Shown here one piece after another: positions 387 through 45,826 of a stretch of 64,000 bases of DNA; the first letter of the stretch is position 1, and every line of letters starts with the position of its first letter. This DNA comes from Phallus indusiatus. Its lineage: Eukaryota > Basidiomycota > Agaricomycetes > Phallales > Phallaceae. Position numbers and translations under genes: made by a program. Under the pieces are notes generated by a model that worked only from the letters and a program-made list of their open reading frames with translations, did no database searches and was not told the DNA's origin. The DNA is taken from the NCBI GenBank assembly GCA_027605045.1, contig JAQFWX010000012.1, forward strand, positions 322,930-386,929. Direction: 5' to 3'.

Positions 387-2144
387 ATGCCTGTCCCTCA
401 ACTCTGTAGCTCTGATATCCATGCAGACGAAAGCATTGTTTCAGACAATGTCTACCCCACTCCGTCTCCATCCCCACCTCCAACATCAACCCCTTCCAAC
501 GCCATGGACGTTGACGTACAAGATCCTTTCAATTATCTTTCCACGGTGCGTACATCTTTTTTTCGCTCGTGGACAACATTCATAAGTGATTTTTTCTCAG
601 TTCTTCATTCATGAATCCTACGACGCAGAATTCTGGTGGAGAACAACTGGAAAGATCTTCTCCCAAATGATGAAACGGGCTTTCTACTCCTTAGAACAAC
701 AATACAAGTACCTTATGTTCTACTATTTCACAATTGTTCCCGAACTAGGCTCAGCTCCTTCCCCTGCTCATCCGAAATTCCCCGTAAAATCTCCATACAA
801 GCACATTTCGAAGACCAGGTCGAGAAGGAAGGGTGGTGATATGGCCATAACCACTGATGTGGAGACTGCGAAGCCCGTCTATCGATCGTATATGACAGAC
901 GACCACACTCCCATTGAGTTGTCCTGGCAGTTCGGCGCGGACGGAGGCGTCGTAGCACGCTTCGCTATCGATCCCGTCGTTAGACAGTCTTCCGCAGAAA
1001 GATCTCGTGGTACTATGAGCATATTCGATGACTTATCGTCTTTGGAGACCATTGCTCCGGGTGTTGACTTGGACTGGTGCCGTGTATGTGCGAAGACGTT
1101 GACAACATCCGATGTTGATCACCGAGTTAACACCATCTCGCAATACCCTAGTCAATACTTCGTTGGTAATGGAACTTCGTGTTTTGTATCATGAAACAAT
1201 TTTAAACGTTCATTAGGATTTGACTTTTCTTCCCAAGGGATCGTTCTTAAGGCATACTTCCTACCAGAAACAAAGTCAGCAATAACGGGAATCTCTAAAG
1301 CCACCTTGGTGACGCAATGCATAGAGGAGCTAGCAACAAGGTCTTCCTCCGATTTGTTAACTCCCTGGCTGCGCGTTCGCAAATTTTTCAAAACACTTCC
1401 GCTATCCCTCAGACCTAACATCAACATCGTCGCTGTAGACTGTGTATCCTCGAAGCACAATCGTGTTAAAGTATACTGCAGATCGCCTTCCGCGACATTG
1501 TCAAACTTGCGTCGGTTCATCACCCTTGGCCGCTCACATCAAAGTAACATTCCCCTATCCACTTCTACTTCCACTGCCTTCCCTACTGCCCATTCAGACT
1601 CGGATTCGTCTCCCTTGAGTCGAGGACTGCGGCAAATTACCCTTCTCTGGTACTTGCTCTTTCCGGAAATGGCAAGCAGCGAGTTTGACAATACGGAACC
1701 CACAATGAAAGATCCGTCACATCCCACAACCGGTCTTCTGTTTTATTATGAGCTTCGTGGAGGGCATTCAGAACCCTTTCCAAAAGTCTATATTCCCGTT
1801 CGACATCTTTGCCCGAATGATAAACACGTAGTAAAAGCGTTGACGCAGTTTTACCATCGGACCGGGAATATCAAAGCTGGTATGCGATATGCCCGGGACG
1901 TGCAGGAAATTTTGTAAGTAATCCTCTAGCAAAACCTCCAACGGTTTAATTTTATTCTAAACACTCCCCCCTTTTTTCCAGTTCACATCGGCGATTATCC
2001 CAACGTTCAGGAATTCACACATACATCACAGTTGCTATCAAAGAAAGCAATATCGAAGTAACAAGCTACTTCAATCCCGAATGTTATTCCGCAGATTATC
2101 AGAAAGAACAACGCCACTGCAGCAGTAATCCCGTCGGCTATTAA
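387..2144 (+). CDS. DMATS-family aromatic (indole-type) prenyltransferase
   Basis: Predicted to transfer a prenyl group from a prenyl diphosphate to an aromatic acceptor such as an indole; these are soluble ABBA-fold enzymes of specialised metabolism. Four exons join in frame (387-545, 601-1165, 1217-1913, 1982-2144) to about 527 residues, somewhat longer than usual because of a Ser/Pro-rich N terminus and a Ser/Thr-rich insert. Family marks in order: the WWRTTGKIF region, then TPIELSW, whose Glu corresponds to the residue that activates the indole, then RVKVYCRSP and FITLGRS (diphosphate-binding strands), KVYIPVRHLCPND, and HTYITVAIKES followed by TSYFNPECY near the C terminus. The start ATG at 387 opens exon 1; upstream frames are not convincing. 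The acceptor cannot be told from sequence. Family assignment is confident. No NRPS or PKS gene is next to it in this window. Confidence 0.9.
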
Positions 2145-19129: not shown

Positions 19130-21027
19130 ATGGCGAAGAAAGTGTATCGCATTGCTGTTATACCAGGCGATGGAATTGGACAGGAAGGTAAGTTGTCCCG
19201 CGGTTTTCATATATCGGGAATGTCTCACTAAAGCCTGTGTGAATGAAACAGTGATGCCAGAGGGACTTCGGTGTTTGGAAGCAGTAGCTGAAAAGCACGG
19301 ATTTGAGTGGAATTTCGAACATTTTGATTTTGCGTCCTGTGACTACTACGAAAAGCACGGTTGCATGTTACCCCCAGACTGGATTGACGTCCTGAAACCG
19401 TTTGATGCCATTTATTTCGGCGCCGTGGGAGATCCAAACCGTTACCCTGTCAGCGCAGCATTTGAGGGTATAATTTAATTGACGTGCTTATTTATATCAC
19501 AGGATCATATTACTCTATGGGGAAGTCTGCTACAAGTTCAGTATTTCAATTATGCCCCAGTCCAGCCGATTAACCGCTTCATTTCTTATCAGTTTCGGAG
19601 ATATTTTGATCAATACGTCAATCTTCGGCCAGTTAGATTGATCCCTGGCGTTCCAAGTCCACTGGCACTGAGAACTCCTGGAAGTGAGAAAATGTATGTG
19701 GTTCCTTTCAAGCACGTCTTCAGGTTCATTGATGAGGCTGCTTCAAGTGACTTCTGGGTAGTTCGTGAAAATACGGAAGGTTAGTTTATAATTTTTTCTT
19801 TTGTATCAACGTTCTCGTTTTACGTTTTGTAGGGGAATACTCTGAAATCGGGGGAAGGTGCGCATGTATCGGACTTTATCGGGTTCTATAGTACGTCCCT
19901 GAAATCGATCCAGAATATTTGCCGGGACACCGAGGGAGATCGTTACGCAAGAAACCATTATGACTAGAATCGGGGTTGATCGTATTTTGGATTATGCCTT
20001 TAAGTTGGCACAATCAAGGCCTCGGAAACTGTTGACAAGCGCAAGTAAGTTTCAGAACACGGGTTATATCCACGATTAATTCTTTCTTTATAGCTAAGAG
20101 CAACGGTCTGTTTATGCGCTGTTAACTTATCCTCCATAAATTCAATTCATACTTAAATAGGCATATCGATCACAATGCCATATTGGGATGAGCGTGTGGC
20201 AGAGAAGGCCAAGGGTTATCCTGACGTCAAGGTCGAAAAGTATCATGTGAGTTTTGGTGTAATATAAATGATATTCCATCAAGTGAAAGCGCCGAAATTA
20301 GATTGACATACTTTCTGCTCATTTTGTCGGTAGACCGCATACGTAAGTCCTGAAACATCAATAACAATTGGTTTTGTCTATGCGAAAATGCAAACTTGGC
20401 TTGTAGGTTCGATGTAGTTGTTGGAAGGTACCGCTGGGTTTCTTAGTCATTAATCCCACATTGTTAACACTTTACACAGCAATCTATTCGGTGACATTTT
20501 GTCCGTAAGTATCATGATGTTTGTCGTCTTGACACGGGTTATCATTTGGTTATTCATTATTGATTACTCAAGGACCTTGGACCGGCTGTCACAGGTACCA
20601 TAGGTATTGCCCCTTCTGGAAATATTAACCCTACGGGCGAATGGCCTTCCTTATTCGAGCCTGTAAGTTCATAAGCATTTGGCACCCCTATGCTGCTACT
20701 GCACACTTGAAGGGTTATAGGTGCATGGATCTGCCCCCGATATCTCTGGAAAATATATCGCCAATCCTGTTGGGGTGAGATTGCTACATCATATGCAGGG
20801 TTATTTGTGCCATTGATGGATCAATTTTTGATACATAGATGATATGGTCCGGACAAATGATGCTTCTGCACTTGGGCGAGAAAGAAGCAGCAGCGGATCT
20901 TATGGCCGCTATTGACATAGTACTCGGCCGGGCTAACCCTTCTGAAATTACCCCTGATTTGGGAGGAAATGCGAAGACGCATGACCTTGGAGCGGCAATT
21001 GAACGAGCTGTCAGAAGTAGACAATGA
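19130..21027 (+). CDS. beta-decarboxylating dehydrogenase, tartrate/D-malate type
   Basis: NAD-dependent oxidation and decarboxylation of a 2-hydroxy acid (D-malate or tartrate class), in the same family as 3-isopropylmalate dehydrogenase. Exons read KKVYRIAVIPGDGIGQEVMP, YFGAVGDPNRYP, DHITLWGSLLQ, FRRYFDQYVNLRPVRLIPGV (substrate-binding Arg residues), FWVVRENTEGEYSEIGG, then FAGTPREIVTQETIMTRIGV, ITMPYWDERV (catalytic Tyr region), FDVVVGSNLFGDILSDLGP (metal-binding Asp residues), then TGTIGIAPSGNINP and FEPVHGSAPDISG (NAD-binding). About a dozen introns; the product is near 360 residues and appears intact. The FDQYVNLRPVRL block and the GTPREIVTQE block separate it from Leu2-type enzymes, although family members can accept 3-alkylmalates. 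No targeting peptide is evident. It sits 6.6 kb from the 2-isopropylmalate-synthase homologue, so it could supply the third step of a chain-elongation route; that is inference. Confidence 0.9.
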
Positions 21028-22080
21028 ACACCAAAGGAGATGTGTAGAATGGGCGTGTTCTGTAGGGTATTTTTGTTACCCTTTTATTTCTGCCCCTTTT
21101 TCTCCTTTTTACCCGTTCAACTTACAACTGTCATAAGCTGTATCGCTTGTGTATAACCGTGATCATAATTAAGCCGGTTATTGCAAACGTATCTGTTAAT
21201 TTCATCGATAAAATTGTAAGAGATAGTAACTGAAATTGATGTAGTTGGATCGGTGCTATAATTCATGGGCTTGGAGCTGAATGTTTGCAACTAGGTATGA
21301 ATAAGTGTACACCGTCCTAAATCCAATACCATTAAATTCAATAACTCCTCTGGCACATTGTCAGTTTTTAAAAGTCGAATTCCGACAAGGACGCAGACGT
21401 GCAAGTATATGAAACCGAACCCCTAACGAAGCAGGGGCTACTATAGGGTAAAGTGGCTTCAAGAACATTATCATCTTTTACGTTTTCCCTCTGTCTTCAG
21501 GGTACTACAAGGGAGTAAACCAACGTCAGAAGTTATTGCCGGAGTCGCTCTCACTATATTACTTATGGATGTATCGGAAATCTTCCGTCTGTGTCGCCAA
21601 GAATTTTGAGGCCACTGGCCAGATGTACATAGCTTAGGTCCATTGGCTGCCTTATGACCCGGCGATGCCGTTATTGAAGCTAGTGCATTACCATGGCTTA
21701 TCTCTACAATATAAGCATCCATTCCCTGATAGTGACGCAATATCCAAACGTACCGTTGAGATATACTCACGTTCTACATTTATGCTTGGAGGCTGTCATG
21801 AAATGTATGCGGAGATATGCACTGCACCTAGTAACGTTGACGAGGGGTATGAGATAGAAGGATAAAAACAGGTTTTTCTGGCCACCTCAAGTCAGATGAC
21901 TCCTTCTGTGCCCCCTGGTATCAATGAACGGAAGAGCACCGAGGCTAACGGAGGTTGACGAGATGCCACTTGCTAATATTTATGCATTATAATTATAATC
22001 TAAGTTTGAGTAATAATAGTAATTTTATGTCTATCTAAGAGAAGATGTCAGATAAGTATGAAGGGCAATAAAGAATCTCC
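21028..22080. other. intergenic region between convergent genes
   Basis: About 1 kb between the dehydrogenase stop and the DUF1308 stop. The minus 99-codon frame at 21471-21770 has no recognisable content. Presumably 3' ends and spacer. Confidence 0.5.
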
Positions 22081-23983
22081 TTACGGCAAGCGGGTTTGCA
22101 TGTTTTCTGAGAGGCTACGTGGCTCGATGATCCAGATGGTAGCCTCGATTTCGCCCGCGTCGGAACGACTCTGAGTGGGTTTTGGGAGGTGCGCGTCACA
22201 ATTGTTTTCTAAGAAAGTGACATTTTGGTTTTCTAGAACTTTCATTTCTCTAATCAGCGCTCTAACACTCGCTTTATTGGCTGTGAGAGTTGTCATTCCT
22301 TCATAACAGCCCAGCAGCATCGACTTCACGGTATGCATCGTGAGCTTTGGGTTTAAACTAGAGACTTTAACTTGACCCATCTCTCCATATTTTCGAAAGA
22401 GTCTAGGATGGGGCGTAGCAGCGTCTTTTAGAATATATCGACAAGTTTGAGCAAGTCGGGATTGGAATAAAGATGTGTTTCGAAATTGTTTAGTTTCGTA
22501 TGAATCTTCAGGGTGCCAGCGGTGTATACGAATTGGGAACAGAGATGGAAAGAATGTGGGAGGAAATCGTGAATTTTTCCAGAATTCAGGGGCCAGATCT
22601 GGTGATTCGTTTATATTGTCGTATTTGTCGTGGAAAAGCACCCGCGCACGGTGTTTTTCATTTGAACCTCCGACCTTCTCGACGATCTGCAAAGCTCTAT
22701 CTCGGGCCTCATCTGATGTCCAAAATTCGACAGATTCAATGGGCCATCTCGCAGATAATTTTTCCACAAGCTCGTTGAGAATTCCCCGATCCATTTCTTG
22801 TAAACATTGCAAAAAAAGCGCGCGCGAGTGCTTTGTAAATTCTCTGTCAAAGTGTCCAACCGGACCCGGACCGGCATCATCGGGATGATGTCCATCGTCC
22901 GTTGGGAGATTAATGCTCGTGCATTGACGCTTTTCATCATGATGAATATGGCATTGCGGTAGCGACGTACTGAATCTTGATTTAGCTTCTTCACGATTAG
23001 ATGGCAAGTCTGCATGTGTAAGATCAGAGATTAAGGCAATTAAAACGGAGAGGTCCAAATTGACTCGATTAGTTGGTTGACAAAGGATCGGTGAAGTATT
23101 TTGATTGTCATTTTCCCTTGTTGTCCTGAAAGGACGCTCCCCTAATTGGACATCGAGTCCAGATCGACGGAGGTCGTTGATAACCTGGCCTATTCTGGAA
23201 TCTTGCCCCCTGGCAGGATCTAGCCGTGTAAGCCTCAAAACTATCTTGGGTTTTTCGTTAGACCCGATCCATGCAATTGATCCAGCTCTCATCAGGGCAC
23301 GACCCATTTGAAGAAGGGAATTATCCTGATAAGTTGGAAAATTGCCATGAACTACGTCTACATCTGAAGATTTTTCTGTCTCGTCCTCCGATTCTGTCAG
23401 GTATGAATCAAGCTCCCGAAATTCGGCTATCAGCTTGGAGTTTTTGATCCTAAATGACAAAAGTTGAAAAAGGCGCGTTTCAAAACAGGAAGACTACACC
23501 ATCCATTGAAGTTGGAGGCTTACGTATTGATTCGTATCCATGTCTTGCCCTCATCAGCTACTACGTCAATTTTGACACTTTTATTTTGCATATCGGTCCC
23601 ATGATTTCCGGCTGGCGATGGAAAAATTTTTCCAAGGGCCACGACAGGCCAAGGCGCTGAAATGAGTTCATTCCAAACAGCAATAAAATATAGGGCATTA
23701 GTTGAAAATTTAGACTTTGAGTTGGGTTTTCGTATGTGCTAGTTCTTCCCTTGGAGAAGAGAATTTGATTGAGAGAACAAACACTTACCTGCTCAAGAAC
23801 TTCTATTTCCTTGCTCAAGGAATCTCGAAAACTTCGTAGACCGGAAATAGAGTCAAGGGTGTTATTGTCGGAGTCATCCAGTCCCAGTATAGGTAAGCTA
23901 AATTTATTCGATTCAATGAAGATTGGAATTGCCTGCGATATAGCTTGTAGCTGTTCTAACTGTATGCCCAGAGAGATCGCCAT
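22081..23983 (-). CDS. DUF1308 / C7orf25-type (UPF0415) protein
   Basis: A conserved eukaryotic protein of unknown biochemical role; the C-terminal half of the family has been proposed to be PIN-like. From ATG 23983 the first exon gives MAISLGIQLEQLQAISQAIP and SLSKEIEVLEQ. The next exon includes KIFPSPAGNHGTDMQNKSVK and IDVVADEGKTWIRINT, a family hallmark. The large last exon (about 23449 down to 22081) has IKNSKLIAEFRELDSY, NRVNLDLSVLIALISDLTHA (another hallmark), a long middle region, SSLNPKLTMHTVKSM, then TLTANKASVRALIREM and IWIIEPRSLSENMQTRLP, which match the family C terminus. The donor of the first intron is uncertain: GTAAGT at the obvious site gives the wrong phase, and a donor 4 bp further on keeps frame. 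A start at 24088 is possible. It lies between two metabolic genes but has no known metabolic role. Confidence 0.8.
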
Positions 23984-24949
23984 CACGGTCACAATTGGGA
24001 GTTTCGTAAATTGCTGAGTTTGACGGAGTTTGAAAAGAGACAAAAATGCCTCTTTAGCTTTACAGCACCACTGGACCATCTGGACCATTAATTTTGTTTC
24101 ATATCACGCGATCTCTGAAATGCTTTAGCTCCGGATCTGGCTTAATAGATAGGAAAGTTATCGGATCGCCAGGTCTTTGAAAGTCCGTTCGGGATCGGCG
24201 ACGGGCAATGAAAGAATGACCCCCCGTTTCCAACCGGTCCTTGTGAGGTGATGTCCTATGTTGAATCTGCTAATATGTCTTCGCTACGACTTGTATTATC
24301 TCAAATTTCGGTATAAGATAATTGCCGGCTGATATCTCTGCCGGAAATGACTTTGCAGTTATTATTCGAAGTCAAAACCAGACAAGCAAACCAGCAATAT
24401 AATTGATATGAATGACATGTCTCTCTCTAACCAGACGTCTCTAATCTATAAGTTCCCACAAAAAAAATATTGTATGATCTGGGGAAGGTATACGTGGTGT
24501 TAACTTGTGAAGAGCTAATTGACTCTGTAAACGAAAGAACGGATCAAAGGGCGGTGTGTATATCAAAAGGTTATTTGACCAGAGGTCTCATTCTTCGAAG
24601 GCTACATTCAGAAGTAGCAATTCTTATGCTTTGATTGATTTCTTGCTGTTTATACTTGATTTACAAGAAGTTCGAACTGCCAGTGAGACACGCCAGTTCA
24701 ACTGCTAGGCTAAATTTGTCCAGCGGGAGAAACAGACTCAGGACTACGATGCCATTAGTCATATTGTTATATTGGCACTACATTTGAAAGAAACTCTCTT
24801 ATCTCAAATTCATTCATTACAAAGTTTTACTTACGTGTTTATAGTTTTCTGTCGCGCCAGGTCTAGTCCCGGCATGGACGGGTATCTGAATGGCGCCAAT
24901 TTGCCGGCGCTTCACTTTTCTTTACTCCAAACCTGCACAACAGTCACCG
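23984..24949. other. divergent intergenic region
   Basis: About 970 bp between the divergent DUF1308 gene and the gene at 24950. No coding content, RNA gene or repeat was recognised. Confidence 0.5.
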
Positions 24950-26122
24950 ATGTCTAGAACCTCCTCTGCTTCATCACCCCGCACCCTGTTTGATGCTTTG
25001 GATTTATCTCATTTTCAAGAACCCTCAGAAATCAGGAAGAGATTTACCGAATTGGCCGAATGCTTACTCCTGCATCACAAGTTATGTCTCGATTACACCG
25101 AAGGTGGCGCTTCAAATCAGGTTCAGACCTTCGAATTTCAATTGCTAGAAATTGAATTCTACCTATATTTTCCGGATATTCACGAAGATCCGTTCTGTCA
25201 TAGTCATATAAACCAGACAAATTCCGGACAATGGTAAGGTAGCCTTCTACAAAAGAAAACTATGCCATTACGATTCACAAGGTACTTTCATCGTGCCGGG
25301 GCCGGGCAAGCAAAAAAAGACGGTATTTCCAGTTTGGATAAGGCAACAAAAAATCCCAAAACGAGCTGTGGTGGCTATCGCGGAGGGACACGCAAAGGTG
25401 TTGATCTCGTGTTTGGAAACCCTGTCACATCATCCTTTTTTCCATCTTCATCGACAATCCACGGAGGTATTTTATTGCGATCAATGCGGTCCCTTTCCTG
25501 CGAAAACGAGGTCGTGTCAGGGCCTTCATTACTTGTGGATAAGATTCTTGAGCTGACATGCTCGAGAAACATAGCTGAATTGGTCAATGACAAGTTGAAC
25601 GGTCACATTTGCGCCATCGATAATAGTGCTTTAACGGTCAATAAGACCGTAAATCTTTGTTTCCGTCCTTCCCGAAACGATCATCCTGGCTACTTTCACG
25701 GAACTATTGAATGTTCTCCGCGCGTAGGACTGGAGCTCTCTCATCCTTCTGTCATACCCATTTCTTCCAATCCTCGCGTTTCGTTTATTGGAAGAATGTA
25801 TCGCTTTTTTATAAATCCCGAATCCCTCAAAGCAAGCACTCGGTACTACAACCTTGTCCCATATCTATCAAGGGACTTTATTAATCACCTCGGAGAAGAC
25901 ACTATTAGCAAGACAGTCACAAATCTAATAACACAAATTGGAAAAGAAACATTTATTCACCGGGCACGTCTAGAGAAGTACATCACCGCTTTCTCGGATG
26001 GTTATCAACGGAAAGACCTCAAAGGCTTTGTTGGCCCCCCCGGCAAGGGCACCTCTGCTAATCCCATCAAGTTTTTGACATTAATTGGGGTTCTGTGTAG
26101 ATTAGGGTTGCTCGATGGATAA
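24950..26122 (+). CDS. conserved fungal protein of unknown function
   Basis: I do not recognise a defined family. Two exons (24950-25233 and 25282-26122) join in frame to 374 residues with standard GTAAGG donor and CACAAG acceptor. Exon 1 has a helical N-terminal half and ends in a conserved-looking block: LLEIEFYLYFPDIHEDPFCH, then SGQW joined to YFHRAGAGQ in exon 2. Exon 2 carries CGGYRGGTRKGVDLVFGNP, HGGILLRSMRSL, VVSGPSLLVDKILEL, a middle region with RVGLELSHPS, and a C-terminal helix-rich end with LTLIGVLCRLGLLDG. The order (Glu-containing strand, HxDP, YFHR, GG-RGG, G-D, GG-LLR, GPS) suggests an enzyme with a compact active site, and I recall similar Agaricomycete hypothetical proteins. 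No signal peptide or membrane segment. It is 1.5 kb upstream of the 2-isopropylmalate-synthase homologue on the same strand. Confidence 0.8.
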
Positions 26123-27608
26123 TAGAAATCCACGTTGCTTATCATATAGATTCATTCCAAATCAAGTCACGAATATCATGTGCCCTGTTGAATTAACCAG
26201 ATTTCGCTGAATGAGATGGCCATATAGCATCATTTTTTTGAGTACACACATACGGGGTAAGCGGCAACTTTTCACTTGTACATACTTACGTTTCTTTTCG
26301 GGGCACAAGATGTATGTTTTGGATTTTATTTCATCGAACCAGGCAGTCATTCAATGACACGATTTACAGAAGCCTTGGGTTTGTAAATTATGGCTCCAAA
26401 AGTTATAGTTGGTGACTTTGAAATGCGTATATGGTCTTAATGACCGCTTTACTTGGTATTTGGAGAATGTGGAAATTGAATCCCCTTTGTTTTTCGCATA
26501 CACGTTCCTACCTACGGGCGATAGGACATTGGCCAGTTACATAACAACGATGAACAGCTAGCGTTCCATGACACTATTACATCATCTAATTAAAGCTTTG
26601 TTCCCCGACTGGTTGTTGTATTCGTAAATGTTCTCACAGAGCTTTTGTATGTCCGTATCTAGGCACATGTACTGAATTTCGAGCGCGGTCAAAACTCAAT
26701 AAGACACAACGACCGCGTGCACTGAGAGCAGGGAGCTTTCAAGTTGCTCAGTCTCACCTGCATTACTAGGAATCAAATATCGCACACCGGTGCCAGGATA
26801 ATGGAATCGTCATATATATCCATGAATTTGGCATGATCCATATGCTCTTCACGTTCGTAATGTCAGTCTCTTGATCGGTTTTAAATGTATGTACATAGAT
26901 ACGCTTTAATAGTGTCGTGATGCGCGCAAGCCTATGATTGTTTTTTTCTCTCACAGGAGCGGGATTGCGTGGGTGCATTCTTTCAGAATAGCGTATTTTC
27001 GGACCGATAAGTATAGACAGTGATAGATTTATGATAGTCGGTGAATCTTAGAAGCCTGAAAGTCAACTCTTGCTATGAGCGCCTATTCTCGGCAGAGGCT
27101 CTGGCATCTCACTTGCTTCGTCAGGTTCACACGTGTGCAGAGCCGAACTCTTTTCTCTGTTCCTTTCCGACAAATCAGTTACCACCTTCAGCAACAGCAA
27201 GAGAAAAAAATAAAGGATATTTATTTTTTTTCTTTTCTTCAATTTCAGTGTCTCAAAATTTAAATATAAACGATATTATCCTATGATTGGGGTCTCGGAG
27301 TAGGTTTGTTCTTATTGATTTTATATTTACACTTTTCAGGTAATACTCCCGATTTATCGTTATGGACTTCTTAACAACTCAATCATCCTACCCTGTGCTC
27401 ATTTGGATATCCAGAAAATGAGAGCTTGTATTTCCGCAGACAACCATAACATAGTCATTTTCGCGGTATCTTCTTCCGAGGAAAGACGACCGTATGGACC
27501 AAAAACATTCGACCAATATGGGTACAATAATTATAAGGTGTAGTCTATATAAACCCAACTAATCCTCCTTCAAACTTCCATCAAGTCCTTTCGTTGCTTT
27601 CACATATC
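26123..27608. other. intergenic region upstream of the IPMS homologue
   Basis: About 1.5 kb with no supported gene. I scanned it for TGACTCA/TGAGTCA boxes, typical of general amino-acid control, and found none. A TATA box lies near its right end. Short frames, including a minus frame at 26766-26978, are unremarkable. Confidence 0.5.
27546..27553 (+). promoter_or_regulatory. TATA box of the IPMS homologue
   Basis: TATATAAA at 27546-27553 lies 56 bp before the start codon at 27609, a plausible distance for a basidiomycete core promoter. Confidence 0.55.
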
Positions 27609-29957
27609 ATGTCTTTGAGCCCAAAGCTTCCTACTCTTTCTGTATTCCCTCGTCTCTCTCGTCTTCTTCTCAGCCCTCCGCGACACTCGTGTCGGGGATT
27701 GGCAACAGTTTCTGATGCTCCCATTCTGTTCGTGAATGCCCTTTTTGTGTTGTCCGAGAATTGCATACTGATGACGATGCGTTTTCCAAACCTCTTTGAA
27801 TAGTCCTGAGCCATCTCAAAAATACCAGCCTTATACCCCTATACAATTGAACGATCGTCAATGGTCTTCAAAAGTACTTCGTAATGCACCTATGTGGCTT
27901 TCTACAGACCTCAGAGACGGAAACCAAGCCCTGCCCAACCCAATGAGTCTGCAACAGAAACGCAGGTTCTTTGACATGCTCTTGAGAATCGGATTCAAAG
28001 AAATCGAAGTAGCCTATCCGTCCGCTAGCGAAACGGAATTCATGTTCGTTCGGAGTCTCATCGAAGAAAATGTTGTCCCAGATGACGTGTGGTTACAGGT
28101 GCCTCTTATTTTATCAAAATTTCTCATGTGGCTAACAAACGTTTTTCCTTTGCTTTTGGTTAAAGGTTTTGACTCCTTGCAGACCCGAGCTCATAAAGAA
28201 GACATTAGAAAGTGTCGCTGGTGCGAAAAACGTCATTATCCATACATACTTGGGTACCGCTCGGATATTTAGGGAAGTTGTTTTCCAAAAGACGTGTCAG
28301 GAGACCGTCGAGATGGCTAAGAAGAACGTCGCGCTAGTCCGGGACCTTACTCAAGAATATGCGGCACGTTACGGGACAAACTTTCGTTTCAATTTTGGCG
28401 TCGAAGGGTTTTCACAAGCCGAACCCGATTTTGTATTAGAGTTATGTGAAGAAGTGAAGCGGACCTGGGCACGAGCTGAACCGGGCAATCAAAGAATCAC
28501 CTTTAATCTTGCTGCTTCTGTAGAGGTCGCACCGCCGAATCATTTTGCTGATCAAGTACGTGGGATATAGCATATTTGAATTTTCTGTAAGAGGTTTAAT
28601 AATATTGGCCTTTTATTAGGTGGAATATTTCTCTCGCAATATTTCTGAAAGAGAAAAAGTTATTATTAGTGTACATCCTCACAACGACATGGGTATGAAT
28701 TTCAAAATGATAAAAATGCCCTTCTGATTTTTCTCATACAACCTTCTCAGGTACGGCTGCCGCAGCCGCTCATCTAGGTTTGCTGGCTGGTGCCGAGCGT
28801 GTTGAAGGCTGTTTGCTTGGCCACGGCGAACGAACTGGCAACGTTGACTTAATTACAATGGCTCTTAACCAATTTACTCAGGGGATCTCACCACGCTTGG
28901 ACTTCCGCAACCTACCCGCCATCTTGAAAACAGTCGAAGAATGCACAGGCCTACCTGTGAATCCGCGTCTACCTTACTCCGGAAGCCTAGCGTTCACTGC
29001 CTTTTCTGGATCACACCAGGATGCTATCAGAAAGGGATTCCAAGCACAGAAAAAACGTCACGAAGAGAACCGTTTCAAAGGAGAACCACAATTGTGGAGT
29101 ATTCCGTATTTGCCCTTTGATCCCAATGGTGAGTATTTCTTGACTTTTTCGATGGGGGTTCTCAACTTTCCATTTTTTTTTCTCTTTCTCAATCATTCTC
29201 GATAGACATTGGCTGCACTTACGAAGCAATGATCCGTGTCAACAGCCAGAGCGGAAAAGCTGGAGTAACCTCTTTACTCGATCAGGCACTTTCCATCAAA
29301 CTGCCGCGTGAAATGCAAGCTGCATTCTACAAAATCGTTCAAAGGGAAGCTGAGAGAACTGGAAAGGAAGTTTCCATTCGTACCATTGTTCGCCTGTTTC
29401 GTCAAACGTATCGGCTTGGTGTTGAGCGCTCCTTACCAAGCTACGTAACCTTACAGTCATACCGTATTCTAAACGATCATCGTCGCACGATGGCTCAACA
29501 AAGTCCAGCAACGGTCGCTGTAGAAGCTGATATACAATGTGATGGACTGACCCGTACTATTCAAGGTTCGGGTTCCACTCCCCAACACGCTTTTCTTTCA
29601 GCACTCTCGAATGCATTAAGCGTACCCATGACGCTTCTGGAAAGTCAGGAACACGAAATAGAACACATACCAGGTCAAGAACGACCCATTTCTTTTTCTT
29701 CTTCTCAAAAAGCGACAAACTCTCACACAAGGGACATTGCTTCTTTCTCTAAAATCTCGATTCCGATTTCTCTTCAACAAACCTTTTGGGGTACGGGAAT
29801 CGCAGACGACCCTGCCGAGGCTGGAATCGCCGCCGTGCTTAGCGCAGTTAACCTCGGAATGGATCAACTACGGCCAGAGACTTCGATTGATAAAAGGGCG
29901 TATCCACGTATCAAGAATCTCCCACGTGGTCAACAAAAGCTGATGATGATGGCATAG
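27609..29957 (+). CDS. 2-isopropylmalate synthase homologue with altered pocket
   Basis: Predicted to condense acetyl-CoA with a 2-oxoacid. The first exon is an Arg/Ser/Leu-rich mitochondrial-type leader ([20 protein letters not shown]). The catalytic barrel follows: [20 protein letters not shown] (metal Asp and catalytic Arg), [42 protein letters not shown] (metal His pair), [33 protein letters not shown] and [15 protein letters not shown] LeuA-type C-terminal domain follows ([29 protein letters not shown]). About six introns; roughly 640 residues; intact. Oddities: the usual FSPE strand reads FGVE (28394-28405), FNLPATVE reads FNLAASVE (28502-28525), and GNGERTGN reads GHGERTGN (28819-28842). 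The first two changes replace pocket residues by smaller ones, so a bulkier 2-oxoacid than 2-oxoisovalerate is plausible. It could still be an unusual LEU4; the sequence alone does not settle this. Confidence 0.9.
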
Positions 29958-30741
29958 ATTATATGAATCTTACATATGACCTTTTCTCACTTTTTCTCGT
30001 TGTTTCTATTCATAATTCTCGTTTTGAATTATATTATCGTATTTTTATCGCTTGTACACTCAACTTAAGTTTCCACTCAAACACGAAAAACTCCCACATG
30101 GAACGTGTTTGGGGCTATCTTGACAAATCAGCCACAGGAGCATATAAACCCCAGGAATCACCCGTGGCAGCAGCAGTGACAACGGGACGATCAGCGAGAG
30201 AATTCAATAATCTAATATTCGAATTTTCCTCCCATAATATTTTACAATTCTGGATGCGTCTTAGTCACCCCAGTCAAGGGAAAAACGACTACCATCCAAG
30301 GCATGTATAATACGCTTAGTACAGCCTAATCTTTTTAAATGGGGAAACACGGACTATAGATTGCACACAGAGTTAATCGTCATTAGAAGTAACGGAGATC
30401 CCTGATCTAAATAAATTAGAGAGATCGGGTTTGACTTCCTTATAAATATACTCCAGATTGGTTTAAGTAATACTAAATTTTACGTACATTGTACGTAAAA
30501 ATAATTGAATGATTTGACAGAAATTAATCATAAAAAATGAGTGTGGGAGCATACCGCTGAGTTCTTCTCCCTCCCCAGAAGAAGTCCGGTATGTCATCAA
30601 AGATGGTCAATGCGTGTCAATATGAGCCAATGATATGGACAGGCCTTGAACTCCGTTTTTGTTCATCCCTTCCCTAGAACGGAACAATGGACATTGTCTC
30701 CGATTGTTCTTGTTCTGACACCACTTCGTTTGACTTTCTCT
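29958..30741. other. intergenic region between IPMS and isomerase homologues
   Basis: About 780 bp between two tandem genes. Contains a perfect inverted repeat at 30478-30500. The 115-codon frame at 29963-30310 has no recognisable content. Confidence 0.5.
30478..30500. repeat. perfect 10-bp inverted repeat with 3-bp spacer
   Basis: TTTTACGTAC at 30478-30487 and GTACGTAAAA at 30491-30500 are exact reverse complements separated by ATT. It lies about 240 bp upstream of the isomerase homologue and could bind a dimeric factor; that is a guess. Its TTTTACGTA half resembles the palindrome at 10224-10243. Confidence 0.5.
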
Positions 30742-33682
30742 ATGACCACGGAAACACCAAGAACCTTGTACGAGAAGATATGGGAGTAAGTTCTTGTTTT
30801 TGTTTGTTCCCAAAACGATCTCAATAATTAACATCCTTTAGCGAGCATACAGTGTGAGTTGATACTCGTCATCGTTAACGGCCAATGTATGCCTATTGTC
30901 AAATGAACATAGTTGTCGTCAAGAAGATGGTCCCACCTTGTTATACATCGATAGGTGATTCGTAAAAAGGTTCAATGCGATTGAATCCCAACTGACACAG
31001 TTCAAGGCATATCATACATGAAGTGACGACCGCTCAGGCTTTTAAAAGCCTGTATGTTGAGATATGATGAATTTGCGAAATGCTGTTCTGATTGGTCCAA
31101 AGCCGAGATAACAATCGGATTGTTCGTCGTCCAGACTTGACGCTGGCAACGGCAGATCACATCGTCCCGTGAGTCAGCTTGATCCTAGTTTGTACCATGC
31201 CAAGCGTTCTTATAATCGGACGACGTCCAGAACCAAGTCTCGAAAGCAGTTGTCTCAACAAGATTACTACAAAGATGATCCCAAGGCGAAAGAGCTGTGC
31301 AGTGCTCTTGAAAAAAATGCTCTAGATTTTGGCTTGCATCTATTCTCCTTGAACGACAAGCGCCAAGGTAAGAGCTGCGAGCGTTGTTATCCCGGCTAAA
31401 TTCATCACTCGTTTCCAGGAATCGTACATGTCATCGCGCCTGAACAAGGCTTCATTGTAAGAGCTTCTGAGCGTTTGACTTTGGCTAAAATATCTTGACA
31501 CAATTAAATTTCAGCTCCCAGGAACGACTTGCGTTTGCGGAGATTCCCATACCTCTAGTATAGATTTTCTTGTTCTACGATTTCTAAATGAACTGACGCA
31601 AATTAAATAAAGCGCACGGTGCGTTCGGAGCCTTGGCATTCGGAATTGGCACCTCGGAAGTCGAACATACTCTTGCCACCCAAGCGCTTTGGCAGCGAAA
31701 GAGCAAGAACATGCGGATATCTGTCGAAGGAGAGCTCCATCAAAGTGTTTCCTCGAAAGATATTATTTTACACATTATTGGAAGAATTGGGACAGCGGGA
31801 GGAACGGGTAGGTTTTGCTGTTCAGCTCTTGCTGCGTCGGAAAAAAAAGCTGAGAATGACGGAACAGGCTGCGTAATAGAATATGCGGGTTCTGTTATTC
31901 GAAACTTGTCGATGGAGGCAAGAATGAGTATTTGGTGAGATGATTCGAAGCTAGATCTTTGATGCATCGTGGACTTAACGCATCCAGTAACATGTCAATA
32001 GAAGCCGGAGCAAGAGCTGGAATGATCGCACCCGACGAGATAACTCTAAATTTCTTAAAAGGCTTGCCGTTCGCTCCAAGATCAGGCAACGAATGGGATA
32101 AAGCCGAAAATCATTGGAGATCGCTCTATAGCGATAAGGAAGCTAAATTTGATATTGATATTACATTTGATGCGGCTGAAATTGCACCCTGTGTCACCTG
32201 GGGAACTTCTCCTCAGGACGTCGTTCCCATTATCGGCTCCGTTCCTCATCCCGAATCGTTCCAAGATCCCCATAGACAAAGTGCGGTGCAACGCTCGCTT
32301 GCGTATATGAATCTTCAACCGGGGACACGCATGGAAGACATCGCTATAGATAAAGTTTTTATGGGATCTTGTACGAATAGCCGCATAGAAGATCTTCGTT
32401 CGGTAGCCTCAGTTATCTTGGCGGCGGGACCTGATGCTCGCGTCCCACCGAATGTGCGTGCGTTGATCGTCCCAGGGTCTGGAATGGTAAAGCAACAGGC
32501 CGAAGCGGAAGGCCTTGACATAATTTTCGAACGGGCAGGTTTTGATTGGAGGGAAGCGGGATGCTCAATGTGTTGCGGCTTAAACCAAGATAGGTTAAAA
32601 GTCGGAGAAGTAAGCATTTAACCGTTATCAGCTTTTTCGTGCGATCTCGTGATATCTGATTTCATTTGACAGAGGTGTGCGTCCACGAGTAATCGTAACT
32701 TTGAGGGGCGCCAAGGAAGCGGTAGCAGAACACATCTGCTAAGTCCGGTCATGGCGGCTGCAGCGGCTCTGAATGGCAAGTTAACCGATGTGCGAAAGTA
32801 CGGCATTTTGCCACGGATGCCCGACCATTCAAGGAAACAGCATTCATCGATCTCTACGAACCTTCATACTGGGAAAAGTATGTTTACGAGAGAGGAAAAT
32901 ACGCCACCTTCCAAGGATCATCAGCAACCTATCCAAGAAGGGAAAGAGTCCGTCAAGTTTGTAACTCACCGTGGAATCGCTGCGCCACTTTCTATGGAGA
33001 ACATTGACACAGATGTCATAATTTCTGTTCAATTTCTAGCTGAGGTTACACGAAGCGGTTATGGAAAATATCTTTTCCATGCATTACGGTTCTCTCCTGC
33101 CACGGGTGAAAAGACAGATTTCGTTTTGAACCGGGTACCTTATGATAAGTCATCCATCATCGTTTGCACAGGTCGTAACTTCGGATGTGGGAGCAGCCGT
33201 GAAGCTGCTGTATGGAGTTTGTACGCATACAAACCTTTGTTCCCTTTTTCGAAGAATGATCGTTGCTGATTCACTCCATTAGCAAAGAGTTCGGAATTAA
33301 ATGCATAATTGCACCCAGTTTCGGAGAGATATTCGAAAACAACTGTTTCAAGAATGGAGTTCTTCCTATTATCCTTCCACTTGCACAATGCGAGGAACTC
33401 CGGGCAGACGCAGAGGCGGCTTTACAGTTGGAAATAGATTTGGCCGCTTTGGAAATCCGTAGGACTGAACCAAGATCGACCATTTGTTTCCACATCGATC
33501 CATTCCGACGACATTGTTTGCTTCAGGGGCTAGACGATATTGGTTTGACGATAGAAAGACTCGGGGAAATTGAACAATTCGAAGAGAATAGAAAGGCGAA
33601 ATTTCCGTGGATTGATGATATTCCTCCACCTTCTCGAACAAAGTTGTGGAATCAAGGATATGAAGAAGCTTACGAATGGTAA
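30742..33682 (+). CDS. isopropylmalate isomerase homologue (aconitase family, LEU1-type)
   Basis: Predicted [4Fe-4S] hydro-lyase moving a hydroxyl from C2 to C3 of a 2-alkylmalate. Exons read [122 protein letters not shown] and [13 protein letters not shown]. The cluster Cys residues in GSCTN and GCSMC are all present. The swivel domain follows at about 32960-33682 ([36 protein letters not shown]). About 760 residues in one chain, as in fungal Leu1; no targeting leader. Oddities: the near-invariant PKQFL reads SVQFL (about 33027-33041), and SREHAPWAL reads SREAAVWSF (33195-33220). With the synthase changes this argues for a different substrate. The start codon at 30742 opens a complete first exon. 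Confidence 0.92.
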
Positions 33683-34832
33683 TTGAAATAGCGGACAATC
33701 GCGTACCTGTATATTTTTCCTACAGGAATTTATGCAATCCTTAAAAGGATCATTCTTTTTAGATATTATCAACATCAATACATAAAGTGCTTACTATATC
33801 TACCTTTGATGAAAGCTCTATTAGCTTGACCTTTGAGAAGGGCCCGGGTGCTAGTCTTATAAATACGTTTGCAGCCAAACTTGATTGAGCACAACGCCGA
33901 TCAGAAGTGGTGTGAAATCCTAGTACGTTTGTCGATGCTTATCCCCTTCGAGCCATCGCATAGCTTTACTTATGTTTTAAGATGTAAGAAGTCCATATAT
34001 GTGGCAAAAACCATCTCTCACGCGTTTAAGTAGTTCCTCTGAGACAAAGAAAAAAAATTATCAATAGGGAATATCTTCTTCTCTGAGACCTTACCATAAG
34101 TTGATTCTTTCCATTATCCAACGGACGCCTTGGAAACGGGGTACATTCATACGTCCTTCTAACCAATGTACTTACCTGCCCGTGAGTATTTTGACAGTGT
34201 GATTAAGCCACCACTTACGCAGTAGCTTCGTTGAAGGTTTTGATCATTTATACAACGAAGACCGGGACCACGTTATCGACAAGGGTATGATCTACATAAC
34301 ACCCTGTATAATGAGTTATTTTATCATCGAGGTTATGGCTTGAGATTTTATATCGCCGAGAAGAAATCCACCTTAACACGGTTTTTTGAGAAGATGTAAC
34401 CCGAACTTCGCACAAATTTTTCAAGCTAAGCGTCTAGCTCTCTCTGTCCCACAGCAAATTGGGAATTTGATACGCGTCGATGCAATCGTAATCTGTATTC
34501 TGAAAAAAAAAACCATGAATGACAATAAATCGGACCCATACTAAATAAACAATGTCATCCAGAAAAGCTACCTGGTTGAAATTAGGTGTTATTTCTACAG
34601 ATGTGGAGAGTTATCCAAAGTCGCAGAGGAGTGTTAGGCAATTAGAGTAAGACGAAACTTCTGCGGAGGCGTCGGAAGTTCTGTCAAGGTTGCTAAAAAA
34701 ATTGATAGCGTCACGGTTGACAACGTTGAACGTTGACAGCGAAAACAGGTTACGTAAGGTGAAAATCCGGCAATCCCCGGGCACGGACCTGTGACGCTGC
34801 CGACCTTCTCAAGATCCGTGCGACAACTGGGA
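33683..34832. other. intergenic region
   Basis: About 1.15 kb. No gene is supported; a run of A near 34503 and ordinary AT-rich sequence. No TATA box was noted close to the aldehyde dehydrogenase start. Confidence 0.5.
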
Positions 34833-37111
34833 ATGCTACCTCTTCCAAGGCTCAGCTGTCGTCAACTGTGTTCCCAGAAACATGTCGCGTATAGGAGACT
34901 ATCAACGCGCGCGAAGGGCATACTTTCTTCCTTGAGTCTTCCGGAGACACACTCGGAAATACCGGGTATCTACGATGGAGAATGGAAAGGATCAGGAGAC
35001 ATCATTGAAAGCGTTTGTCCTTCGACACGAGAGATAATTGGGCGGGTCCGATCTGTATGTAATTGGTTTGTACATGTCATTTCCTACGATGCTTATCCTA
35101 TGTGTAATAGGGCACACCAGAAGAACTGCAAGCGACATTGTCTAAGACCCGAGAAGCTTACCGTCAATTCAGATCATTACCTGCATCATATCGTGGAGAA
35201 ATAGTACGGCAAATCAGAAACGCTATATCGTCCAAAGTATGCCTGCCGCTTCTCTGTCCAAAGGAGAAATAACCACTGACGCAATCACCTGTAACAGAGA
35301 GAAGAGCTTGGAGCCCTGGTTGCACTTGAGATGGGGAAGATACGCACTGAAGGGAAGGGAGAAGTACAAGAATTCATTGACATTGTGAGTATGTCGAGAA
35401 AAAAATGATAGCTCATATCTTTCTCACAAGAAAATTAAGTGCGATTATGCCGTTGGTTTGTCCAGAATGATGAACGGTCGACTAGTTTCTTCTGAAAGAC
35501 CCGGTCATTCTATCCTTGAAGGTTAGACAAATCTTTTGTCAGGTGGAAAGCAATTACGTATCATTAAGACCATTTTTATTATAGTACCCAATCCTCTCGG
35601 AGTAGTTGCAGTACTGTCTGCATTCAATTTCCCAGTTGCGGTCTATGGATGGTCTGTCCTTTAGTAATTTCCCAAATCTATAATTGTGTCTGAGCAAATT
35701 TTCCGATAGGAACCTTGCAATTTCTATGATTTCAGGAAATGCCACCCTTTGGAAACCTTCTCCGACGACACCACTCTGTTCAATTGCCATAACAAAGATT
35801 GTGAGTGGTGTGTTAGCGGAGAACAATTTGCCAGGGGCGATTGCGGGGTTGTTTGTCGGTGGCAAAGATGCGGGGGAGGCTATCGTGGAAAGCGAAGAGG
35901 TTGACCTCGGTAACACGGTTTATTTGTCTGTCGTTATCGTGTCTGCTTTAACTCCGGTTACATTAAGTCTCCTTTACGGGATCTGAAGCAGTAGGTAGAC
36001 AGGTTGGCAAAGTGGTGCAGAGCCGTTTTGGAAAGGTCCTTCTTGAGTTGGGTGGAAACAATGGCTAGTAATCTCTATGACAGATCAGAGGAGGTTCAAA
36101 AAGTCTCACACTTTGATCAGCTGCGGTTGTTCTTGCTGACGCCGATCTTGATTTGGCCTTGCCGGCTGTATTTTTTGGCGCAGTGGGGACTGCTGGCCAA
36201 AGATGTACGACAACTCGCAGATTGTATGTCCAACGTTCCATAGCTTCGGAATTCCTCGGACGACTCCAGGCCGCATACAAATCTGTCTTTCCCGGAGATC
36301 CTTTAGTGGACGGAACCTTATTAGGACCTCTACATACAAAGCGAGCTATTACAACTTATAATTCAGCCATCGATCACTTGCGATCCTCAGAAGCGGAAAT
36401 TCTTGTCGGAGGGAAAGTATATGAACCATCCGATATCAGAGAAAAGTATCTTTCCCAAGGATACTTCGTCCAGCCTACGATTGCTATCCCTAAATCAACG
36501 GATACTAGACAGATGATTTGGAGTAAAGAAAATTTCGCGCCTATTTTGAATGTGGCTGTGTTCGATGACGTTGAGGAAGCTATTTCATGGAACAATGCCG
36601 TGCCTCAGGGACTGTCCAGCACCTTATGGACCCGAGACGTAAGAAATATCGGGAAGTGGATCGGTCCTGCGGGTTCTGATTGTGGTATCGTCAATGTAAG
36701 TGATGCACCGAACCTTCTGGACCTTCTGTTGACACTGATGATGTATGTATTCAAGGTGAATGTCGGGACTAGCGGCGCTGAAATTGGGGCAGCCTTTGGT
36801 GGAAATAAGGTATGTCTTTCTCATCATCATGGTGTACATCAATTATTGTCTCTCTAACTACTGAGCTTCTGCGTTCCTTGATTTTAGAGTACTGGATGGT
36901 TAGTCACCTTTTATTATTCTTCTGGAGGTTTTGAGTGATGCAACATGAAATGGTTGATGTTTCATGTCTTTTTCTTCAACACAGGGGCCGAGAATCCGGG
37001 GGTGACGCTTGGAAACAGTATGTACGCTGGAGTGCATGTACCATCAACTATTCAGATGCGGCACCTCTCGCACAAGGAGTCAACTTCTCTTTACCATCGT
37101 CATCATCATGA
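34833..37111 (+). CDS. ALDH7/antiquitin-type aldehyde dehydrogenase
   Basis: NAD-dependent oxidation of a semialdehyde to the acid; animal and plant ALDH7 acts on alpha-aminoadipic and betaine-type aldehydes. From ATG 34833 the leader [17 protein letters not shown] with further Arg residues suggests mitochondrial import. Then [113 protein letters not shown] (catalytic Glu), [19 protein letters not shown] (catalytic Cys) and [14 protein letters not shown]. The last exons give [15 protein letters not shown] and PLAQGVNF. The fit is to ALDH7 throughout. About ten introns. Oddity: between LELGGNN and [15 protein letters not shown] (about 36060-36120) the frame joins only if the intron begins with GC rather than GT. 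Placed just after the isomerase homologue on the same strand. Confidence 0.9.
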
Positions 37112-43475: not shown

Positions 43476-45826
43476 CTAAATTTGTTGCACAAAGATTTTT
43501 GCAAAATATTTCCTGACTCCTTCAGCGTTCGATACAATGGCTCCAATGAACGAATCGGGTCTGACTATAACGATTGTGACCGTTTCTTTGTTAAGGATTC
43601 TATAACTTGTGGCAGCGTGGTTCTCCTTGTCCTGGACAATGCGAATATCGGAGCTCGCAGTGAAGTCGACATTGAGTTTGTTCACGTCATCACCTCCACC
43701 AATAGGGTCGCAGATGACTAATATTTGTATTAAACCAGCGGGACGAGTCCGTATCGCATCAAGAATAGCTGAGACCGATGCTGCCGCCAATGTGTTAGCG
43801 AAAATTAGCACAGTATGCATATCGGTTCTGAAAACGTCGAGAAGACAAGTTGTCTCTTTTTTGTGAATGTCGTACAAAGCGGGAGCATCCGGCGCTCTGT
43901 CGCCAGCGCAGAGAGTATCGCGGCCTTCATATCCAGAATACGCATGAGCTCTGACATCTTCAGCATCCCATTCTTCCGTATTTGCGCGTTCTTCAAGTAC
44001 GATGGAGCTAAACCTGTAATTTACACCGTACAATTCCAAGGCATCGTTACGCCATTTCATAAACTGACTTCTGTCGTTAGCAATCGCTGGTACAGATTTG
44101 ACGGCGTCAGCTTCATTAGTCTGTTCTTTTTCTTTTGAAACAAGGTGGGTGTAAAGTTTGGTGGTTGCGTAGAGCATTTGAGTTATCACTGGCAAACGCT
44201 CTTCGTTGTATGTATCCAAAAGTGATGGCGGTGCGTGCGACTTCAAAACGAGAGCTAGTTTCCAAGAGAGATTTGACTAATAGCCGATTTGAGTTAGAGA
44301 GTTAGAGATATCAGGCACGAGGAAATAGGTTCTAACCGCATCTTGGACGCTACAGTTTATACCTTGACCTCCAGTTGGTGAATGGACATGAGCTGCATCT
44401 GAGAGCAGTTCAGCATAGTTCTCCGAATATGAAAAAAAAACCAAACCTCCGACAATAAATACTCTTCCGTTCTGAAACTTGTTCACAATTCTCATATTCG
44501 GTCTGAGAAATACATGAGACTGAGCCGCCAGACCACGCAAAAAAGCTTTCTTTTTACTTATAGTAATTAATCCAACTCCACTTTCCAAATCGTAAGTCTG
44601 TCCTGCCTGTTTCTTTCTGTATAAACTCCATGGCTTTTTCCGGACTGGCTTGTTCTACTGGGTCAAAGCTTTGCCCAACTATGGCGATGTGAAAGATGTT
44701 CCCGGTTTTCGTAGTTGGTCGCATCATTACGCTGGTTTGTTTTTTTTGGTGACCTCGGCTGAAAAAGGGAGGAGAAAAGGACAACGTACGAAAAGCGCTC
44801 CGGTTGCGCCCAAACGTGCCAAAACTAATAATGAGTCAAAAAGAAGAAGAAGAAGAATTCAAGAAAAAGTGGATGATTTACCTCGTTACTCAGGCCGTCA
44901 ATTTCTACATCAGCCCAAACTTGACCATCGGCATCTCGCGTTTCGCCTTGAAAGGTTAACCCCATCAGCTTTCGGCTGGTTCCTGATAAATTTTCAAAGT
45001 TAAATTTAGGAAACTTCTGCATTACGAGATTTTGTTTATAGTTTTCTACCTTTTGCGCCGTCGGCTCCAATGATATATCGCGCCGATACATTCTCGCTTT
45101 CCTCGGTTAGTTCACCATTTTTACACGTGGTGACCGTAGCAATAACGACATCATCGCCCTCCTTTTGTTCGATCGCGGTTAAGGCTTTGCTCAACTCGAC
45201 AGATATACCATATTCGGCAAGTTTGTCTCGTATTATTTCTTCCAAAATAGACTGATGAAGACACAGTCCGTTAGGCTGTGTCATGAATGAGATGTTGATG
45301 TAATTTCTCAGATGTGGCGTGCTTTGAATAAATGGAGCCAACTCACATAAGGACGATCGGGCCAAGGTTGTCTTCTTGGATATAAATCCCATTGTTTGAC
45401 AGGTTCTGTTCCACCAGGAAGTTTGTAAGCCTGTAGAGTGGGAATACCCATGGCGTGTTCCTCAACTTGCTTCTGTATACCAAGCAGTCGGAAAGTCTCA
45501 AAGGTACGCGGCTTAATTGAATAAAATAAGAAGGAGTTTTCGCGAGTGCCATATAAGTATAGTCAGAATGACTCGGAAGAAGCATTAATGAATAACATGG
45601 CGTTGGGTTTACCTGCAAACCGAACCCCCGCGCACCAATTCGATATGAATCTGCGCGATCAATGATCCGTACTTTGATTCCACTTTGGGCCAACCCCAAT
45701 GCTGCGACTAGACCCGACGGACCTGCGCCAGCCTATTAGATGATAAGATATAAGTAAGGAACTCTTCTGAGAGAACTGAATATGAAAATATACAATAAGG
45801 ACCGGTGGAACCTCCGAGTTTGTCAT
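43476..45826 (-). CDS. phenol-hydroxylase-type FAD monooxygenase
   Basis: Flavin-dependent hydroxylation of an aromatic ring, usually of a phenol, with NAD(P)H. From ATG 45826 a short first exon (MTNSEVPPVLI) joins AGAGPSGLVAALGLAQSGIK (FAD Rossmann loop) and IIDRADSYRIGARGFGLQ. Then PRTFETFRLLGIQKQVEE, LPGGTEPVKQWDLYPRRQPW, NGLCLHQSILEEIIRDKL, ARYIIGADGAKG (the DG motif) and RDADGQVWADVEIDGL. After further short exons come PNMRIVNKFQNGRVFIVG, DAAHVHSPTGGQGINCSVQD (FAD ribityl/diphosphate site) and NLSWKLALVLKSHAPPSLLD. The last exon carries the thioredoxin-like C-terminal domain (LCAGDRAPDAPALYDIHKKE) and ends at 43476. About nine introns; near 590 residues; intact. The natural substrate is unknown. 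It sits between two paralogous zinc-finger genes. Confidence 0.91.

Follow-up and report, generated by a model that had tools for sequence, protein, structure and literature searches.

We examined three enzyme genes in a 64-kb stretch of the Phallus indusiatus genome (the window, C24:322930-386929), namely those for a LEU4-like 2-alkylmalate synthase, a LEU1-like aconitase-family isomerase and a tartrate/D-malate-type dehydrogenase (Table 1). An original prediction, made from the sequence alone, had placed three such genes on one strand within 15 kb and proposed them as a candidate set for lengthening 2-oxoacids outside normal leucine synthesis. The three genes do share the + strand, with a total span of 14.6 kb, and the two predicted genes between dehydrogenase and synthase are real open frames on the - and + strands; a Pfam scan of four frames in these two genes gave no match that reaches a cut-off. 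The enzyme gene models were spliced by a protein-to-DNA alignment script plus hand editing. Every model is open from end to end, which rules out that these are pseudogenes, and the 31 introns, of 49-77 bases, all have GT-AG ends. In addition, a database protein of 646 amino acids from an intron-free, 2,394-base contig (P0001) matches the spliced synthase model without a difference through residue 640, and its last six residues resemble what we take to be sequencing-adapter read-through. P0001 is most simply a cDNA, and the synthase gene is therefore probably transcribed.

Table 1. Positions in the window of the three enzyme genes and of other features
Feature	Position	Strand	Remarks
Tartrate/D-malate-type beta-decarboxylating dehydrogenase	19130-21027	+	15 exons, 364 amino acids; proposed third step
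LEU4-like 2-alkylmalate synthase paralogue	27609-29957	+	6 exons, 668 amino acids; proposed first step
Synthase exons	27609-27727, 27804-28098, 28166-28555, 28620-28692, 28751-29128, 29206-29957	+	
Synthase first exon, basic presequence-like extension	27609-27727	+	N-termini compared
LEU1-like aconitase-family isomerase paralogue	30742-33682	+	13 exons, 752 amino acids; proposed second step
First open-frame gene separating dehydrogenase from synthase	22084-24103	-	
Second open-frame gene separating dehydrogenase from synthase	about 24890-26122	+	
ALDH7-type (antiquitin-like) aldehyde dehydrogenase	34890-37093	+	Downstream neighbour, at most a possible member of the set; splice guide; best PDB matches antiquitin/ALDH7A1
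Tryptophan dimethylallyltransferase (PF11991)	586-1914		Pfam scan; some 17 kb upstream of the dehydrogenase gene
Flavin-dependent (FAD) monooxygenase, phenol-hydroxylase type	43479-45732	-	Pfam scan
Two aspartyl protease frames in tandem (PF00026)	59933-62938		Pfam scan

Canonical leucine genes and the origin of the synthase

Canonical LEU4, LEU1 and LEU2 were all found outside the window when we searched the genome (67.2 Mb, 206 contigs), which rules out that the window set holds its only leucine genes, the condition under which the original prediction was to be refuted. A PF00682 profile search gave 14 matches, located in the window and on C111, C9, C13, C24 (at 1.17 Mb), C145 and, weakly, C184. 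The gene on C111 is a canonical LEU4, scoring 792.8 bits against the leuA_yeast (TIGR00970) equivalog cut-off of 697.4. The window synthase is not an allele of it, as only one 239-base stretch of C111 matches at the DNA level (67%). Homocitrate synthase and 3-hydroxy-3-methylglutaryl-CoA (HMG-CoA) lyase are likewise ruled out as identities of the window synthase, such best scores being found instead for the fragments on C9 and at C24:1.17 Mb. A PF00694 search recovered the window and three Leu1-type loci (C140, C100 and C104), each with the canonical recognition loop and the SREHAPW motif. These represent two canonical-looking genes, about 85% identical (C140:1.75 Mb and C100:773 kb / C104:7 kb), the C100 and C104 copies being probably alleles with nearly identical spliced proteins that differ near one 14-residue stretch (automatic splice). 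LEU2 lies at C140:920 kb and on C171, where the piece scores best as leuB.

The window synthase itself, at 665.3 bits, lies below the leuA_yeast cut-off with a match that reaches profile position 560 of 564. Five of its relatives are also below the cut-off (615.5-682.7 bits, the lowest, P0004, being a truncated model), and P0007 is above it (913.5 bits). Among the best 120 of about 8,000 matches, a scope that holds for each of our searches of related fungi and within which absences are not proof, the nearest relatives of the window synthase come from Clathrus columnatus (80% and 72% identity), Hysterangium stoloniferum (70%), Ramaria rubella (66%) and Sphaerobolus stellatus (66%), that is, from the Phallales, Hysterangiales, Gomphales and Geastrales, all of subclass Phallomycetidae. 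A tree of 41 chosen rows unites the six distinct paralogues from the Phallomycetidae in a single clade (Shimodaira-Hasegawa approximate likelihood ratio test support, SH-aLRT, 100) and places the LEU4 of P. indusiatus among canonical Agaricomycetes (support 95). The clade's neighbours are three Polyporales paralogues (support 94); both stems are long (about 0.7), and long-branch attraction is therefore possible. These Polyporales proteins (P0087, P0090 and P0113, from Pilatotrama, Trametes elegans and T. polyzona) constitute a second diverged LEU4-like family, with S216G, P217V and changes at 143 and 167 but P252 kept (numbering given below). The catalytic parts of the window synthase and the LEU4 of the same genome are 61% identical and the remaining parts 36%, and two whole exons are equal in length between the genes (390 and 73 bases), which argues for an intron-bearing fungal LEU4 as the ancestor of the paralogue. 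Horizontal transfer from ascomycetes, hinted at by an HTYL motif, is not favoured because of these shared exons and because the clade falls among basidiomycetes in the tree.

Substitutions in the synthase and isomerase

To describe the synthase pocket we used the numbering of Mycobacterium tuberculosis LeuA and compared seven paralogue rows (the window synthase, its copy P0001 and five others) with 115 other rows. Residues R80, D81, L143, H167, Y169, E218, N250, H285, H287, H379 and Y410 are kept in all seven; from the M. tuberculosis structural literature, we take R80, D81, E218, H285, H287, H379 and Y410 to be the catalytic and metal-binding residues. The same seven rows all carry S216G, P252A, T254S, R290M, A171G and T219G, along with V or I at 217 and H at 315. 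P252, T254 and R290 are invariant in the 115 other rows, and S216 is replaced by G in three of those, all of them Polyporales paralogues. We infer from these alignments a pocket wider than the canonical one. Position 214, which by our own mapping by spacing would match a specificity position reported for HphA (PMC12961565), is Glu in 110 of 112 canonical rows, Asn in five of the six distinct paralogues and Ala in one. Methylthioalkylmalate (MAM) synthases are reported to derive from isopropylmalate synthase (IPMS) by L143I, H167L, S216G, N250G and P252G, with S216G first and strongest (PMC8490860). At these positions the window synthase differs at 216 (G) and 252 (A) and is the same at 143, 167 and 250.

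The GxGNGP loop of the regulatory domain, which presumably binds leucine, is lost in all seven paralogue rows; among the 115 others the N is kept in 107 and the second G in 112. The regulatory domain is kept but eroded, and leucine feedback has probably been lost. At the other end of the protein, 74-85 residues precede the DLRDGNQ motif in five of six database paralogues, starting basic and acid-poor (the sixth, P0004, is the truncated model). In the 112 other rows with the motif, this stretch has 45 residues or fewer in 94 and at least 70 in five, and the LEU4 of P. indusiatus most simply starts at MPML, as other canonical proteins do, with in-frame stops further upstream. Judged by inspection, a mitochondrial presequence is the natural reading of the extension.

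The isomerase and its relatives from Clathrus, Hysterangium and Ramaria form one clade (support 99 in a tree of 31 chosen rows). CSMC and GSSRE are kept in these paralogues, and 31 columns, one of them inserted, are lineage-specific in at least three of the four against 116 canonical rows, a comparison in which the Ramaria protein P0124 was left out of both sets. The recognition loop IIPKQFLKT reads IISVQFLAE in the window and is changed in all four paralogues. SREHAPW reads SREAAVW in the window, with His replaced by Ala in all four and Pro by Val only in the window and Clathrus. In Arabidopsis, a five-residue region in the small-subunit loop is reported to set the choice between the leucine and the methionine-elongation substrate, GSSRE and its flanks being invariant (PMC7308503); by our own mapping, the changed loop would be this recognition region. 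The predicted active-site changes in both enzymes are thus present, as pocket substitutions in 7/7 rows and as a changed recognition loop in 4/4. The isomerase P0124 (R. rubella, 114,427-base contig) falls between canonical LEU1 and the paralogues; it adjoins the clade, with support of 100 for the five.

Synthase and isomerase could alternatively be feedback-free, perhaps mitochondrial leucine isozymes whose products remain 2- and 3-isopropylmalate and which would, at some growth stage, supply additional leucine or compounds of the isovalerate type. All synthase catalytic residues are kept, loss of the leucine loop alone would give a deregulated isozyme, and the synthase passes the subfamily model NF002991 (661.6 vs 455 bits). 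Moreover, the isomerase exceeds the leuC (712.6 vs 560.25) and leuD (196.5 vs 116.25) cut-offs, although a canonical control isomerase scores above it on both (794.4 and 219.1). Yet P252, T254 and R290 are altered identically in every paralogue row, the isomerase recognition loop is altered too, and the genome already holds a LEU4 and two other LEU1-type loci, and we therefore consider such isozymes rather unlikely.

The dehydrogenase and linkage in related fungi

As predicted, the third enzyme is not of the Leu2 type: it passes the tartrate dehydrogenase equivalog TIGR02089 (520.9 vs 470.4 bits) and fails the leuB equivalog (212.1 vs 353.2 bits), both scores being for a model in which one intron of 18 residues had not yet been removed. 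Its best solved relative is the tartrate dehydrogenase 3flk. The genome has no second gene of this type, other matches being at most 50% identical, and the enzyme is 79-81% identical to its Phallomycetidae orthologues in the match table (83-85% over aligned columns). With lineage-specific residues in only two columns, the protein sequence does not itself hint at a new substrate. Action on isopropylmalate as well has been described for D-malate dehydrogenase (PMC12709889).

To check for the cluster in related species, we took equal base counts in the match tables as indicating the same contig; the contigs range from 81 kb to 2.8 Mb, and the sign that genes lie next to each other comes from the Clathrus locus tags. 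In Clathrus, isomerase and synthase carry consecutive locus tags (Clacol_008774 and Clacol_008775), and a second synthase (Clacol_001961) lies elsewhere. Hysterangium has synthase P0003, isomerase P0122 and dehydrogenase P0242 on one contig of 1,417,034 bases, Sphaerobolus has synthase P0006 and dehydrogenase P0241 on one of 1,073,753 bases, and Ramaria has synthase P0005 and isomerase P0123 on one of 81,234 bases. The synthase-isomerase pair is thus linked in all four species in which both are listed, the window included, and in other orders of the Phallomycetidae as well as in the Phallales.

The case for the dehydrogenase is less uniform. Synthase and isomerase might form an elongation pair by themselves, with LEU2 catalyzing the third step and an ordinary tartrate/D-malate enzyme lying nearby by chance or loose synteny. 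Two unrelated genes intervene, the dehydrogenase sequence is typical of its family, the Ramaria dehydrogenase (P0244) is on a separate contig of 162,914 bases, no Clathrus dehydrogenase is among the 120 matches listed, and a second Hysterangium copy (P0248) lies on another contig. On the other hand, synthase and dehydrogenase share a contig in three of the four species listing both, the window included. The original prediction had regarded the intervening genes as a weakness; this stands, but the shared contigs in Hysterangium and Sphaerobolus strengthen the association. Because these contigs are long, we regard the linkage as support rather than proof, and a bystander dehydrogenase as a real possibility that we do not favor.

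A proposed elongation pathway and known systems

Together, the canonical genes elsewhere in the genome and the linkage in other orders support a set outside leucine synthesis. We propose, with a probability of roughly 55%, that the three genes form a module dedicated to 2-oxoacid chain elongation, which stands apart from leucine synthesis and acts on a substrate other than 3-methyl-2-oxobutanoate, the oxoacid of valine. In this proposed order of steps, the synthase, probably mitochondrial, would condense acetyl-CoA with such a 2-oxoacid (R-CO-COOH); the isomerase would shift the hydroxyl group, converting the 2-alkylmalate into a 3-alkylmalate; and the dehydrogenase would oxidize and decarboxylate the latter to R-CH2-CO-COOH. 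A general aminotransferase encoded elsewhere in the genome, or a decarboxylase, might then finish the product. Since the changes at 216 and 252 would open the pocket and L143 and H167 stay in place, our guess, weakly held, is a medium-sized aliphatic substrate such as 4-methyl-2-oxopentanoate or 4-methylthio-2-oxobutanoate. A citramalate-type route would instead have the synthase use pyruvate and the malate-type dehydrogenase turn 3-methylmalate into 2-oxobutanoate for isoleucine. This type of dehydrogenase presumably suits small malates, but the synthase scores 70.8 bits against a citramalate synthase cut-off of 450, much like the LEU4 of the same genome (64.6), and the pocket changes take bulk away rather than add it, which makes this route very improbable.

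Several points weigh against a dedicated module. Besides the isomerase scores, the two lineage-specific dehydrogenase columns and the Ramaria and Clathrus results given above, no Sphaerobolus isomerase is among the 120 matches listed. Only two of the five MAM positions are changed in the synthase (L143, H167 and N250 being kept), and 252 is Ala rather than Gly. In MAM1, the change G259A at the position equivalent to P252 is reported to yield no elongated products and G259P to yield them (PMC6603273), a result that would count against elongation by a synthase with Ala at 252. The enrichment at reported specificity positions is also modest: among 153 near-invariant catalytic columns, 15 are diagnostic, and these take in two of the five MAM positions (P 0.076), or three of seven once those of HphA are added (P 0.021), which we take as suggestive, not strong. 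Finally, the window gave no aminotransferase match to PF01063 (6/6 candidates scored) or PF00155 (9/48 scored).

Of the 86 open frames of at least 100 amino acids in the window, 20 hand-picked ones were scanned against Pfam. In addition to the scanned features in Table 1, these include one kinase-like gene, one WD40-like gene and others. The sole other close copy of the ALDH7 gene in the genome is a near-identical one on C142. This contig starts inside the isomerase gene (C142:1-287 matches 33403-33690 at 100% identity) and continues into that copy; it is probably the other haplotype, without its synthase copy in the assembly.

On our reading, the elongation module is conserved and would have evolved independently. 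More tentatively, and with considerable doubt, we picture it as an ancient, subclass-wide mitochondrial pathway of the Phallomycetidae, re-invented through MAM positions 216 and 252. On this picture, a tartrate/D-malate dehydrogenase would have been recruited for the third step, and the product would be an oxoacid or amino acid with a lengthened chain that these fungi have not yet been reported to make. Among the open-access papers listed, none dealt with genes of this kind in these fungi, and none offered anything usable for guessing the product. Few cases are known in which 2-oxoacids are lengthened outside leucine synthesis. If our proposal is correct, a set common to four mushroom orders would mean that nature has replayed the evolution of MAM in fungi, and the specificity of synthase and isomerase could be compared during their joint divergence. 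It would also suggest that stinkhorns, coral fungi and their allies make a metabolite not yet described, and it could be a source of enzymes for making non-standard amino acids.

Among known systems, methionine elongation in Brassicaceae, by MAM, isopropylmalate isomerase (IPMI) and isopropylmalate dehydrogenase (IPMDH), similarly relies on a duplicate of the leucine-pathway synthase in which 216 and 252 are substituted, a changed recognition loop in the isomerase small subunit and the loss of leucine feedback, which for the window synthase is judged from its sequence. MAM is reported to have lost the whole C-terminal regulatory domain and to have changed at 143, 167 and 250 as well (PMC8490860, PMC6603273), whereas the window set keeps an eroded regulatory domain, has Ala at 252 and includes a third enzyme of the tartrate/D-malate type. 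The hty homotyrosine genes of echinocandin producers, to which the original prediction had likened the set, are also described as coding for an IPMS-like enzyme, an aconitase-like enzyme and a dehydrogenase that work outside leucine synthesis in fungi (PMC7778625). As far as the searches here reached, this likeness, by description rather than sequence, holds for the three reactions only: hty includes a transaminase and serves a nonribosomal peptide synthetase (NRPS), and we found no aminotransferase among the scored candidates of the two families sought in the window and no NRPS or polyketide synthase (PKS) domain in the 20 scanned frames. HphA, which acts in phenylalanine/tyrosine homologation, resembles the window synthase in having a small residue at 216, and Asn at 214, found in five of the six paralogues, would by our mapping correspond to the hHphA column; compared by description rather than sequence, HphA differs in having Ala where the window synthase keeps Leu143 (PMC12961565). 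Lastly, the window dehydrogenase belongs to the same family as Escherichia coli D-malate dehydrogenase (DmlA) and bacterial tartrate dehydrogenase, and substrate ambiguity that includes isopropylmalate is reported for D-malate dehydrogenase (PMC12709889); unlike these enzymes, it is fungal and linked to a synthase and an isomerase.

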